NCBI GenBank assembly: GCA_021325435.1
Contig: JAJPHE010000086.1
Location: 1 to 51,378 of the forward strand
Reading direction: 5' to 3'
Length of the DNA: 51,378 bases
From: Actinomycetota bacterium
GTDB taxonomy: Bacteria; Actinomycetota; Acidimicrobiia; Acidimicrobiales; JAJPHE01
Part shown: one piece after another, positions 44,321 through 50,085 of the stretch
Layout of the letters: each line of letters starts with the position of its first letter
Position numbering within the stretch: the stretch's first letter is position 1
Notes under the pieces: model-generated
Told to the model about the DNA's origin: nothing
Databases searched by the model: none
Seen by the model: the letters and a program-made list of their open reading frames with translations, nothing else
Made by a program: the position numbers and the translations under genes

Positions 44321-44656
44321 ATGCGAGCAACCCGCCGGAGATTGGCCGCGCTGAGCGTGGGCGCGGCCGGAGTCACCGCCCTGGGCGTCCTGCCCGCCCA
44401 CGCCTCGGCCCCCCCGACACCGGACAACTTCCACAAGCTCAGGGTGTGCGAGTCGAGCGACAACTACTCGACCAACACCGGGAACGGCTATTACGGCGCC
44501 TACCAGTTCAGCCAGTCGACCTGGAACAGCCTGGGGTTCTCGGGCCGGCCCGACCAGGCCTCACCGGCCACCCAGGACCAGGCCGCCCGCGACCTGTACA
44601 ACCAGCGGGGCTGGGAACCGTGGCCGGCCTGCTCCCACAAGGAAGGGCTCGACTAG
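44321..44656 (+). CDS. Rpf-like transglycosylase domain protein
   Basis: A 111-residue secreted protein. A signal peptide (RATRRRLAALSVGAAGVTAL, cleavage near AHASA) is followed by a resuscitation-promoting-factor/transglycosylase-like domain: KLRVCESSDNYSTNTGNGYY with the catalytic Glu in CES, GAYQFSQSTWNSLGF and QRGWEPWPACS. The protein is the bare domain. It should cleave peptidoglycan glycan strands and aid growth or resuscitation. ATG 44321 follows AAGGAG. The structured leader suggests transcript-level control. Confidence 0.9.
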   Translation: MRATRRRLAALSVGAAGVTALGVLPAHASAPPTPDNFHKLRVCESSDNYSTNTGNGYYGAYQFSQSTWNSLGFSGRPDQASPATQDQAARDLYNQRGWEPWPACSHKEGLD

Positions 44657-44662
44657 CCCCCC

Positions 44663-44713
44663 GGTCAGGTGGACCTGACCAAGGCGCCGGGGCCGCCAAC
44701 CGGCCCCGGCGCC
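44663..44713. terminator. two strong hairpins between convergent genes
   Basis: GGTCAGGT/ACCTGACC (44663-44670 with 44673-44680) and GGCGCCGGGGCC/GGCCCCGGCGCC (44683-44694 with 44702-44713) lie just after the Rpf-like stop at 44656. They also code for the last residues of the convergent gene. There is no T tract. They may end the Rpf-like transcript. Confidence 0.45.
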
Positions 44714-46761
44714 CGTCCGAGGTGCCGGCGGCCGGCCACGTAGGCCAAGGCGTAGAGCGCCCCGACCACGACGAGCAGGAACCGGTAACCGGTGAGGAGC
44801 GAGAGATACTCGAGCACCCCCCCGGCGATGGCGCCGAGCAGGTTGGCGCCGAAAGCCACGGTCGAGGAGGCCGACTGGCGGAACCGCTGGGCGAACACCA
44901 GGTTGGCGAGGAAGATCGGTGAGAACGCCACCGCCACCGCGGTGACGAAGCGCAGGGCGAACGGCAGGGCGAGCAGCCACTCCTGCGGCACGGCCCACGC
45001 CGTCGCCAGGGCGGCCAGCAGCAGGCCGTAGAGCACCGCGGGTCGGGGTAGGACGAAGCGGCGGGCCACCTCCACGGCGGCGTACACGCTCAGCAGTACC
45101 CCGGCGAACACCAGCGAGTTGACGAACCACGTGGTGCCGAAGAACAGGGCGAACTGAACCACGTTCTTGGTCTCCAACAGCATGAAGGCACCGCCCATGA
45201 GGGCCAGGTCGGTGTAGCGCGTCATCCGGCGCAGCGGCCCCCCGACTCCCCGCACCAGCAGCAAGGAACCGCCGATGATGAGGCCCAGCATCCAGAGGTA
45301 GATCGACGGCACCGTCGGGCTCTTCAGGTACGGGAAGGGCCAGTCGTCGGTGGATGGGCTCATCGTCTTGCCCGCCCAGATGCTGTGGCAGCCGGGGACC
45401 TGCCCACCGGCCCGGTCGGTGATGACCGCCTGACGTCGTCCCCCCAGCGGGTCGCCGACCTCGACGCAGGGCCGCGCCCCGAACGCGGTGTCGACCATGC
45501 TGGCGTAGCGGTCGAGCAGGAACGGCTCGTAGTAGTTGGCCATGGCGAAGGTGCCGCTGGTGGTCAGATGGGCGCGGGCGGAACGGATGGAGTCCTCGGT
45601 GAGGAGGAAGTTCTCCAGCCGCAGGCTGGACTGGCCGGCCAGCACCGTCAGCGAGTCCGGCAGCGCCAGCAGGATCAGGTCGTAGGGCTGGTGGGTCTGC
45701 TGCAGATAGGCGCGCCCGTCGTTGATGTGCACCGTCACCCGCGGATCCTGGTAGGGCCGGTTGGCGTGGTAGCGGCGACCGAGGCCGGCGAGGACGGGGT
45801 CGATCTCCACGGCGTCGACGTGCTTGGCCCCCTCGGACAAGGCGACGGCGACGTCGTTGCCGGTGCCGGCGCCGATCACCAGAACGTTGTTAAGCGCGCT
45901 CACGTGGCGATAGGGGAAGAAGTAGAACCGCTCGATCCTCCTGAGGGTCGAGATCGGGTAGGCCGTCTGGTGGGGGATGTTGTTGGCTGACACCACGAGG
46001 GTCCCCGGCTGACCCGGAGGCTGCACGGCGGTGACCTTGTAGTACGGCGACCAGTAGTCGTTGGGCGACAGCGACTCGGCCAGCAGCAGGCCGACGGTGA
46101 CCGCCAGGGCGGCCCACTGCCACCAGCGCAGGCGGGGCCCCATCAGCACGGCGATGCCCACGGCGGCGACGAGGCCCCACGCCACCGGCGGTAGGCGCAA
46201 GAACGACAGGGCCGAGAAGGCGGCGATGCCCGCGATGCTTCCGGCGATGTCGAGCCGGTAGGCCTCGAGCGGCGGGAACTGGCCGAAGGCACGGGCCACG
46301 GCCTGGGCGATGCAGGCCATCACCACCACCGTCAGGACGAAGATCACCGGCAGACTCACCCACTGCGGAAGCGGGGCCCGGCCAAAACCCCCGGCGAGCT
46401 GGTGGGGGCCGGCCAGGGCCACCAGCTTGACCGGGAAGGCGAGGACGAAGGCCACCAGGACGGCCAGCGCGGGGGGCGCCCATCGCCATACCTGACGGGG
46501 CGAGCCGCCCAGCAGGAAGCCGAGGCCGATGCCGAGGAAGCTGGCCAGCAGCACGAAATTGGTCACGTAGGCCAGGTGGATGTTGTTGGCCGCCGTCCAG
46601 CGGATCAGGGCCAGCTCCACGAACAGCATCAGCATGCTGAGCCCGGCCAGCCGGGCCCGTGGGGCCCGGGCCGACCGGGCAGGGGGCGCCTGCTCGACCA
46701 CCGGCTCGTCGAGGTCCGGGGACCAGGTCGTGATGTCCGTGTCGGCCTTGGTCACATCCAT
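44665..46761 (-). CDS. membrane protein with spermidine synthase-like domain
   Basis: A 698-residue protein. The N-terminal region (about 40-260) and the C-terminal region (about 510-690) each have several membrane helices, flanking a SAM/aminopropyltransferase-like domain. VLVIGAGTGNDVAVALSEGA, HVDAVEIDPVLAGLGRRYH and VTVHINDGRAYLQ are the SpeE-type motifs. Such fused proteins are common in bacteria; actual spermidine synthesis is not shown. AAGGATGG lies directly upstream, so ATG 46761 or GTG 46755 could be the start. The 3' end overlaps the terminator hairpins. Confidence 0.85.
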   Translation of the reverse strand: MDVTKADTDITTWSPDLDEPVVEQAPPARSARAPRARLAGLSMLMLFVELALIRWTAANNIHLAYVTNFVLLASFLGIGLGFLLGGSPRQVWRWAPPALAVLVAFVLAFPVKLVALAGPHQLAGGFGRAPLPQWVSLPVIFVLTVVVMACIAQAVARAFGQFPPLEAYRLDIAGSIAGIAAFSALSFLRLPPVAWGLVAAVGIAVLMGPRLRWWQWAALAVTVGLLLAESLSPNDYWSPYYKVTAVQPPGQPGTLVVSANNIPHQTAYPISTLRRIERFYFFPYRHVSALNNVLVIGAGTGNDVAVALSEGAKHVDAVEIDPVLAGLGRRYHANRPYQDPRVTVHINDGRAYLQQTHQPYDLILLALPDSLTVLAGQSSLRLENFLLTEDSIRSARAHLTTSGTFAMANYYEPFLLDRYASMVDTAFGARPCVEVGDPLGGRRQAVITDRAGGQVPGCHSIWAGKTMSPSTDDWPFPYLKSPTVPSIYLWMLGLIIGGSLLLVRGVGGPLRRMTRYTDLALMGGAFMLLETKNVVQFALFFGTTWFVNSLVFAGVLLSVYAAVEVARRFVLPRPAVLYGLLLAALATAWAVPQEWLLALPFALRFVTAVAVAFSPIFLANLVFAQRFRQSASSTVAFGANLLGAIAGGVLEYLSLLTGYRFLLVVVGALYALAYVAGRRHLGRAPGPVGGPGALVRST

Positions 46762-46952
46762 CCTTCGTCCACCCAGCGAGGATCTGGTCGCTCTCCCGCA
46801 AGCCCCGCCCCGGAAAAGCGATCGGGCGCCTGCACCGCGGGCGCCCCGCCCAGGATCCTGCGACGCCGGCCGCCCCCGGCGCAAGCCCGACGGCCTTCCG
46901 GGGGCATCAATCCGGGGGACATACTGCGTACGGACCGAGCCGGGGGAAGGCG

Positions 46953-48093: not shown

Positions 48094-49521
48094 TCAGGAG
48101 CTCCCGCCGCCCAGCAGGCTCAGGGCCTGGCGCAGGGAGGAGACGCTCGCCACCTGCCCCGGCCAACCGGCGCCGGCCTGCTGGCCCTCGGGCAGGATGA
48201 GCACAGTGGCGCCGGCGGACTCGGCGCCCTTCGCTTTCACCGATACCCACCCGACCGGGTCCACCCCGCCGTCGGCCTCGAGCTCCCCGGTGGCCGCGAC
48301 CGTCCGACCCCGGGCCAGGTCGTGGCCGCCGAGCAGATCGGCGACGGCCAGGGCGTAGACCAGCCCGGCGGACGGGCCGGTGAGGCCGCGGTCGCGGATG
48401 CGGACCGACACCCCTCGCCGGCTGATTCCGAGCGTCGCCAGGGCCACCTGCACGGCGGTCCGCTGACTGTCGAGGTACTGCTGGCGCCCCAACCGCTCCG
48501 CCTGGACCGGCGTGAGGCCTCCCTCGGCGGCGGCGCCGGTGCCGAGGGTCGGCCGGCCCGACGCCAGGGCCAGCAGGGCACCGGCCAGGTCGGGCCGGGT
48601 CTCGCGCACCCAGAGCAGCAGGTAGTGCCCGGTCGACCGGTGCACCGGCGCCCCGGTGACGGCGATGTCGCCGGTCACGTCGATCGGGGCTCCGGCGGAC
48701 ACGACGCCGATCGGCGGGTGATAGCCGAACAGGGCGGCGCCCAGCACAGCGGCCGCCCCCGCCGCCGCTGCCACCCGGGCCGACCGAGACGTGGGTGACG
48801 GCTCGGGTGGGGCCGGGGTCGGGGTCGGGACGGTGTGGCTCAGGAGGGCCACGGCCTCGCGCAGGGAGAGGGTCCGGCCCGGAGGGCGGGGCGGTGGCCC
48901 GCCGGGCTGGGAGCGGGGTCCGGGCGACCGGGGTGCGGCCTGGCCAGGCGTCCACGGGGGCGGCGGCGCCGTCCGGCGCCACTCGGCACCGCCTTCGGTG
49001 AGCATCCGTTGGGCGAAGGCGGCGAAGTCCTCCGGCGCCACCTCGGGGAAGACCGCCATCTGGAACGGCGGGCAGGTGGACAGCAGCGAAAGCAGGTAGC
49101 GCGGTCCGAGCACGAACAGGACGCAGGCCTCGCTGGTGACAGCCGTGACCGGTTGGGGCCGGAAGCCGACGATCGCCCCCTCGCCGAAGTGGCCACCGGC
49201 ACCGAGCGTGGCCACCGGGCGTCCGGAGCGGCTCAGGCGGACCTGCCCGCTCAGCACGACGAAGAACCAGTAGTCGCGGCCCCCCTGGCGGACGAGGGTG
49301 CGTCCGGCGTCAGCGTCGACGAGCTCGCCCCAGCGCACGATCCGACGCAGCTGAGCCCGGTCGCATCGGGCGAACACGGGAAGACGGGCGAGATGGCGGG
49401 CCAGGCGGGCTCGTAGGACGGGGCTGGCCACTCCCCGCCGGCGGTGGCGCCGGGCCGGCGGCGGCGCCTCTCTCCCGTCGGCGGGAGCCGGTACAGCCGG
49501 AGCGACGCCCGTGGGAGCCAC
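48094..49521 (-). CDS. cyclic nucleotide-binding domain fused to a membrane Lon-type (S16) protease
   Basis: A 475-residue fusion. Residues 40-155 form a CRP-type cNMP-binding fold: GELVDADAGRTLVRQGG and HFGEGAIVGFRPQPVTAVT, with a Glu and Arg where the phosphate cassette expects them. A Pro-rich linker (185-245) leads to one membrane helix (250-267). Residues 280-475 form a Lon C-terminal protease domain as in YlbL, without the PDZ domain: GLTGPSAGLVYALAV gives Ser384 and VSVKAKGAESAGATVLILP gives Lys429. The catalytic part is probably outside the membrane. GTG 49521 is 8 nt after TAGGCT (complement of 49530-49535). Confidence 0.83.
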   Translation of the reverse strand: MAPTGVAPAVPAPADGREAPPPARRHRRRGVASPVLRARLARHLARLPVFARCDRAQLRRIVRWGELVDADAGRTLVRQGGRDYWFFVVLSGQVRLSRSGRPVATLGAGGHFGEGAIVGFRPQPVTAVTSEACVLFVLGPRYLLSLLSTCPPFQMAVFPEVAPEDFAAFAQRMLTEGGAEWRRTAPPPPWTPGQAAPRSPGPRSQPGGPPPRPPGRTLSLREAVALLSHTVPTPTPAPPEPSPTSRSARVAAAAGAAAVLGAALFGYHPPIGVVSAGAPIDVTGDIAVTGAPVHRSTGHYLLLWVRETRPDLAGALLALASGRPTLGTGAAAEGGLTPVQAERLGRQQYLDSQRTAVQVALATLGISRRGVSVRIRDRGLTGPSAGLVYALAVADLLGGHDLARGRTVAATGELEADGGVDPVGWVSVKAKGAESAGATVLILPEGQQAGAGWPGQVASVSSLRQALSLLGGGSS

Positions 49522-49551: not shown

Positions 49552-50085
49552 CTAGCCCGGCGAAGCAGACATTCGGGTCAGGGTCAGGACCGTGTTCCAG
49601 TTGCGGGTGGTGGCGACCGAGCCCAGCCGCCGCTCGAGGAACGCGTTGCTCAGCTTGGTGCGCCCGTAGCCGTTGGGGCAGTGCAGGTAGACGTGCCTGC
49701 CTTCCACGACGAACTCGTCGGGGGCGAACCTCTCCGGCTCGAGGGATGACACCGCCTCGGGCCCGGCGGGCTCCTCGAGGAAGGTGACGGCCAGGCGGGT
49801 CTCGTCCCGCCCCGGCAGCGGGTTGCGGGCGGCCAGGTCGGCCATCTCGCCGGCCGAACGCCACAGGATCCGGGCCGTCACTCCGAGTTCGCCCCTCATG
49901 GCCCGCTCGATGGCGGCCACCACCGCCGCCGGGCGGGCGTGGCCGAACACCACGTTGCCGCTCTGGATGTAGGTGGTGACGGGGGCGCAGCCCGCCTCCT
50001 CGAAGAGCCGCCGCAGGTCGGCCATGGCCACCTTGGTGCGGCCGCCCACGTTGATGCCCCGGACCAGGGCGACGTGGGCCGTCAC
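49552..50085 (-). CDS. DUF1697 family protein
   Basis: A 177-residue DUF1697 protein. HVALVRGINVGGRTKVAMAD, APVTTYIQSGNVVF and the C-terminal NGYGRTKLSNAFLE, then ATTRNWNTVLTL are the full family pattern. The protein is soluble and its function unknown. GTG 50085 begins just after a GC-rich stretch, and no good ribosome site is visible. It is the neighbour of the Lon-type gene on the same strand. Confidence 0.9.
   Translation of the reverse strand: MTAHVALVRGINVGGRTKVAMADLRRLFEEAGCAPVTTYIQSGNVVFGHARPAAVVAAIERAMRGELGVTARILWRSAGEMADLAARNPLPGRDETRLAVTFLEEPAGPEAVSSLEPERFAPDEFVVEGRHVYLHCPNGYGRTKLSNAFLERRLGSVATTRNWNTVLTLTRMSASPG

Follow-up and report, generated by a model that had tools for sequence, protein, structure and literature searches.

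Introduction

Lon-type proteases generally act as oligomers. Among them, the YlbL/SepM proteins of family S16 combine one transmembrane (TM) helix, a PDZ domain and an extracytoplasmic Lon domain with a Ser-Lys dyad, and they carry no AAA+ ATPase. Bacillus subtilis YlbL, with S234 and K279 as its putative dyad, depends on its putative catalytic residues and is believed to work outside the cell (PMC6051672). A two-hybrid assay indicated that it interacts with YneA, which is membrane-bound and mostly extracellular; no in vitro activity was seen for YlbL purified without the membrane helix (PMC6051672).

Cyclic-nucleotide-binding (CNB) domains (PF00027) are found in receptors such as CRP, PKA-R and MlotiK1. 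A Gly residue (Gly169 in RI-alpha) is co-conserved with the Arg of their phosphate-binding cassette (Kannan et al., 2007; PMC2246266). That CNB survey gives no protease as a partner type, and the word 'protease' appears nowhere in it. Changing the Arg to Lys lowers cAMP affinity nearly ten-fold (PMC2246266), and in an RI-alpha Arg mutant the cAMP EC50 was only about 5-fold worse (cited in PMC6440977); because of the latter result, loss of the Arg alone is no proof against cAMP binding, which it lowers but does not always abolish. CooA (heme), CprK and the trypanosome PKA-R have another residue in the Arg position and use the pocket for a different ligand (PMC2246266, PMC6440977).

Here, we analysed a gene in a 51,378-nt stretch of DNA (the window) whose product joins a CNB fold to a Lon-type protease domain. 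No paper on such a CNB-Lon fusion, or on the fusions of a site-2 protease (S2P) to Lon described below, was found in the mainly open-access literature searched.

Results

Layout of the CNB-Lon protein

The list of open reading frames and their translations gave one minus-strand frame, 49521-48094 with the stop codon included, which encodes a single 475-aa protein with the following features.

48094..49521, minus strand: whole gene, 475 aa; GTG start, stop codon at 48094-48096
49027..49401, minus strand: CRP-type CNB fold, residues ~41-165 (PF00027, AlphaFold2 pLDDT, Foldseek)
49267..49269, minus strand: Trp85, invariant across the fusion family
49135..49191, minus strand: degenerate phosphate-binding cassette HFGEGAIVGFRPQPVTAVT, residues 111-129 (alignments with the fusions and with stand-alone CNB domains)
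48787..48966, minus strand: Pro-rich linker, residues 186-245 (AlphaFold2)
48724..48786, minus strand: single TM helix, residues ~246-266 (hydropathy, charge bias, AlphaFold2 helix)
48427..48723, minus strand: YlbL/SepM-like extracytoplasmic lead-in (YHPP...), residues 267-365, directly followed by the Lon domain with no PDZ between
48109..48426, minus strand: S16 Lon-type protease domain, residues ~366-471 (PF05362, partial NCBIfam SepM_fam_S16 match)
48370..48372, minus strand: predicted catalytic Ser384, invariant in 10/10 fusions
48235..48237, minus strand: predicted catalytic Lys429, invariant in 10/10 fusions

Translation may alternatively start at a second in-frame GTG, codon 31; the alignment with homologues begins at about residue 33. 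The Pfam models cNMP_binding (PF00027; residues 71-149, E = 5e-12, 46 bits) and Lon_C (PF05362; residues 382-447, E = 1e-5) both matched above their gathering scores. The NCBIfam model SepM_fam_S16 matched only residues 371-445 (3e-13, 49.5 bits), a partial match below its 200-bit equivalog cut-off. The Pfam search returned no AAA match, that is, no sign of the ATPase domain of the AAA+ Lon proteases (LonA/LonB). An AlphaFold2 model built from a ten-row alignment had a mean pLDDT of 79 over the full length, with values of about 82-92 over most of the CNB domain and mostly above 90 in the Lon domain; the linker was modelled at low confidence, except for a short RTLSLREAVALL element (216-228). 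The top Foldseek matches of the CNB domain were the CNB domains of PKA-R, PKG, MlotiK1 and CNG channels, with a probability of 1.00 for PKA-R and others.

The original prediction, made from the DNA alone, was correct in the frame, strand, coordinates and length. Its CRP-type fold was borne out by Pfam, AlphaFold2 and Foldseek, and its S16 domain by Pfam and AlphaFold2. The Pro-rich linker is present, as is one predicted membrane helix, which lies just ahead of YHPP; its numbering of Ser384 and Lys429 was also right. The strings GEG and FRPQPVT that it had picked out are both present, but FRPQPVT proved to be the phosphate-binding cassette with Gln in the place of Arg. Domain search and structure prediction, which it had proposed, recovered both domains and also revealed that a PDZ domain is missing, a point that it had overlooked.

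Distribution and phylogeny of the fusions

Among 40 relatives, a protein search turned up six more full-length fusions (genomes G001, G003, G012, G015, G027 and G040). When 397 genomes of the order were searched with a profile, G423, G456 and G506 were added, giving ten fusions, the window protein included, with the same domain order. The nine other full-length homologues were 31-51% identical to it. No further CNB-Lon fusions were seen, at the thresholds used, in a class sample of 395 genomes or a phylum sample of 396. CNB-Lon is thus a rare actinobacterial family, as the survey of domain order that had been suggested with the original prediction now indicates. A contig scan found only 4 loci, which says little on rarity because a single narrow peptide pattern was used.

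We built a tree on the Lon domain only, with the CNB domain excluded. The ten fusion Lon domains formed one clade (97/88), apart from canonical YlbL, suggesting that a single fusion event probably lies behind all ten proteins. Canonical YlbL copies were also seen alongside the fusion, both in the window's own genome and in several others that carry one. The fusions with a PDZ domain (G027, G040 and G423) grouped as one clade (100/95), as did the seven that lack it (82/82), a split with which one PDZ loss would be consistent.

Predicted topology and protease domain

The hydropathy profile had a peak at residue 248, corresponding to one hydrophobic helix. In all ten fusions, Arg and Lys were at least as many as Asp and Glu in the 20 residues before the helix, and the 20 residues after it never had a net positive charge. 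The upstream count of the window protein was merely balanced (1/1), with more Arg in the RSAR sequence at the helix start. From this charge bias, an N-in/C-out topology is predicted, with the CNB domain inside and the Lon domain outside. The placement of a cytoplasmic CNB domain and a protease outside the membrane, as first proposed, is thus supported by the charge bias and by the YlbL precedent; a topology with both domains on the same side was not indicated.

Since Ser384 and Lys429 are invariant, corresponding to the Ser-Lys dyad of B. subtilis YlbL, the fusions are likely to have proteolytic activity. They share with YlbL/SepM the one membrane helix, the extracytoplasmic S16 domain, the dyad and the lack of an AAA+ ATPase, and three members also carry the PDZ domain. 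They differ in the N-terminal CNB domain and Pro-rich linker, and in that seven of the ten, the window protein and six others, have no PDZ domain between helix and protease. Judged by sequence, the window protein is therefore a YlbL/SepM-type protease without a PDZ domain. The PDZ loss in seven of the ten suggests that in these members substrate selection or gating moved elsewhere.

The CNB ligand site

The position of the phosphate-binding Arg was occupied by Gln in nine fusions (Gln123 in the window protein) and by His in one. The cassette Glu position was also variable (E5, D1, A2, H2), with Glu114 retained in the window protein. As controls, we used 46 stand-alone CNB domains of the same class, fetched by similarity to the fusion proteins; all had Arg (46/46) and Glu or Asp (46/46). 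Both Arg and Glu were likewise present in all nine stand-alone CNB domains from fusion-bearing genomes, two of which are from the window's own genome. Fisher's test for Arg in fusions versus controls gave p ~3e-11, a value that is descriptive only and not a probability, because the homologues are not independent.

The residue equivalent to RI-alpha Gly169 was Gly in 4/10 fusions versus 45/46 controls, and two residues further on (Trp85 in the window protein) Trp was found in 10/10 fusions versus Glu in 42/46 controls. With the Arg, Glu and Gly not kept and a Trp fixed beside it, the site, as read from these alignments, is remodelled and has not merely drifted. The fusions share the fold and the cassette position with CRP, PKA-R and MlotiK1; however, with the cassette Arg lost in 10/10, the Glu and the coupled Gly not kept, and a protease attached, their CNB domain is, by its residues, not a canonical cAMP sensor. 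Canonical cAMP sensing was accordingly rejected as the leading reading. The original prediction had proposed cyclic-nucleotide control of proteolysis and had named a lack of conserved ligand residues in orthologues as evidence against it; that lack is what we found. The fusions resemble CooA, CprK and the trypanosome PKA-R in the replaced Arg, but have a different effector and Gln in its place.

Class III cyclases were found in all ten fusion-bearing genomes, with seven matches in the window's genome. Thus, cAMP-type signalling would be available there, and the stand-alone CNB domains look like receptors for cAMP-type signals.

Fusions of the same module to M50 proteases

In other lineages of the phylum and in a few genomes of the order, the same TM-PDZ-Lon module is joined to an M50 site-2 protease, in most cases accompanied by CBS domains. 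These proteins share with the CNB fusions the C-terminal module, including the YHPP helix end, but have S2P and CBS domains in the place of CNB, keep the PDZ domain in those examined and are more widely spread in the phylum. Twelve loci (L070 in G489, L071 in G498, L072 in G009, L073 in G534, L100-L104 and L107-L109), mostly outside the order, had single frames of ~700-840 aa with the order M50-(CBS pair)-TM-PDZ-Lon, potentially uniting a site-1 and a site-2 protease in a single chain. On the Lon tree, the M50-Lon proteins were placed between the CNB fusions and canonical YlbL, suggesting that the N-terminal half of the module was probably exchanged at least once. No genome with both full fusions was seen among the 397, but their numbers (10 CNB-Lon and ~5 S2P-Lon) are too small to judge by, and the idea that CNB-Lon replaced S2P-Lon through mutual exclusion was dropped.

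Gene neighbourhood

An all-against-all comparison of the frames near the fusions gave only scattered pairs in varying order, and a conserved operon partner was rejected. By the same comparison, the window's own neighbours had nothing in common with genes near other fusions. An ArsR-like regulator lies near three fusions (L081, L082 and L085) and a more distant ArsR-like gene near a fourth (L084); in L082 and L085 an SRPBCC-like gene is beside it, in differing order and orientation. A metallophosphoesterase-like protein is encoded near two fusions.

In the window, a same-strand frame at 49552-50085 (minus strand), DUF1697-like by eye, lies 30 bp upstream of the CNB-Lon gene; no similar frame was found near the other fusions. 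Further away, a 739-aa frame at 44665-46884 (minus strand) resembles by eye a membrane spermidine-synthase-type protein, and 44321-44656 (plus strand) encodes a short secreted protein that, also by eye, looks like a resuscitation-promoting-factor or transglycosylase-like domain.

Discussion

We favour, with a probability of roughly 0.6, a membrane-anchored, ATP-independent Lon-type serine protease that resembles YlbL/SepM, has a predicted N-in/C-out topology and carries a cytoplasmic CNB fold that would no longer be a canonical cyclic-nucleotide receptor. Inside the cell, the CNB domain would serve as a regulatory or assembly module, and its input may be a ligand other than cAMP or cGMP, a protein partner or self-association; taken together, these options seem to us more likely than cAMP. 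The state of the CNB domain would be passed through the helix to the outside protease, which would cleave a membrane or envelope substrate. The long linker, modelled at low confidence, makes mechanical coupling of the two domains uncertain.

A more specific version, which we put forward tentatively, is that the CNB domain may be a receptor for a probably non-cyclic-nucleotide ligand, with a pocket remade around Trp and Gln, and controls the Lon protease outside through the one helix; CNB-Lon would then be an inside-out signalling protein that arose from a swapped cytoplasmic half. Within this receptor reading, CNB in one lineage and a site-2 protease with CBS in another could, if still somewhat speculatively, be seen as alternative occupants of that half.

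It is somewhat doubtful that the CNB domain instead has a purely structural role, serving dimerisation or localisation to concentrate protease protomers while neither binding a ligand nor switching. The degenerate cassette would fit, tight conformational coupling is hard to square with the long low-confidence linker, and Lon-type proteases are generally oligomeric; however, the Gln and Trp at the old ligand site, near-invariant and invariant respectively, are better conserved than would be expected of such a role. A working cAMP or cGMP receptor with an altered pocket, through which a nucleotide signal in the cytoplasm would switch proteolysis on the far side of the membrane, is improbable: the CNB fold is predicted at high confidence, Glu is kept in five of the ten fusions (Glu114 in the window protein) and every fusion-bearing genome has class III cyclases, but the Arg that is replaced in 10/10 fusions is kept in 46/46 controls and 9/9 from the same genomes, the Glu and coupled Gly are not conserved, and a Trp is fixed next to the site. 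That the frame is an artefact (assembly error, high-GC overlap of two genes or pseudogene) is scarcely credible: the genome is high in GC, is split into 160 contigs and has many long spurious frames, and no clear ribosome-binding site was seen by eye upstream of the GTG, but an intact, alignable frame with like domain order and catalytic residues occurs in nine other genomes, so it is not due to chance, and the Lon domains form one clade.

Judged by the open-access papers searched, this would be the first description of a CNB-protease fusion. The CNB fold has been kept and the cAMP signature lost under clear conservation, which gives the hunt for a new CNB ligand a concrete starting point. CNB-Lon may also help to explain the activation of YlbL/SepM-type proteases, for which the natural fusions suggest a control input on the cytoplasmic side of the helix.
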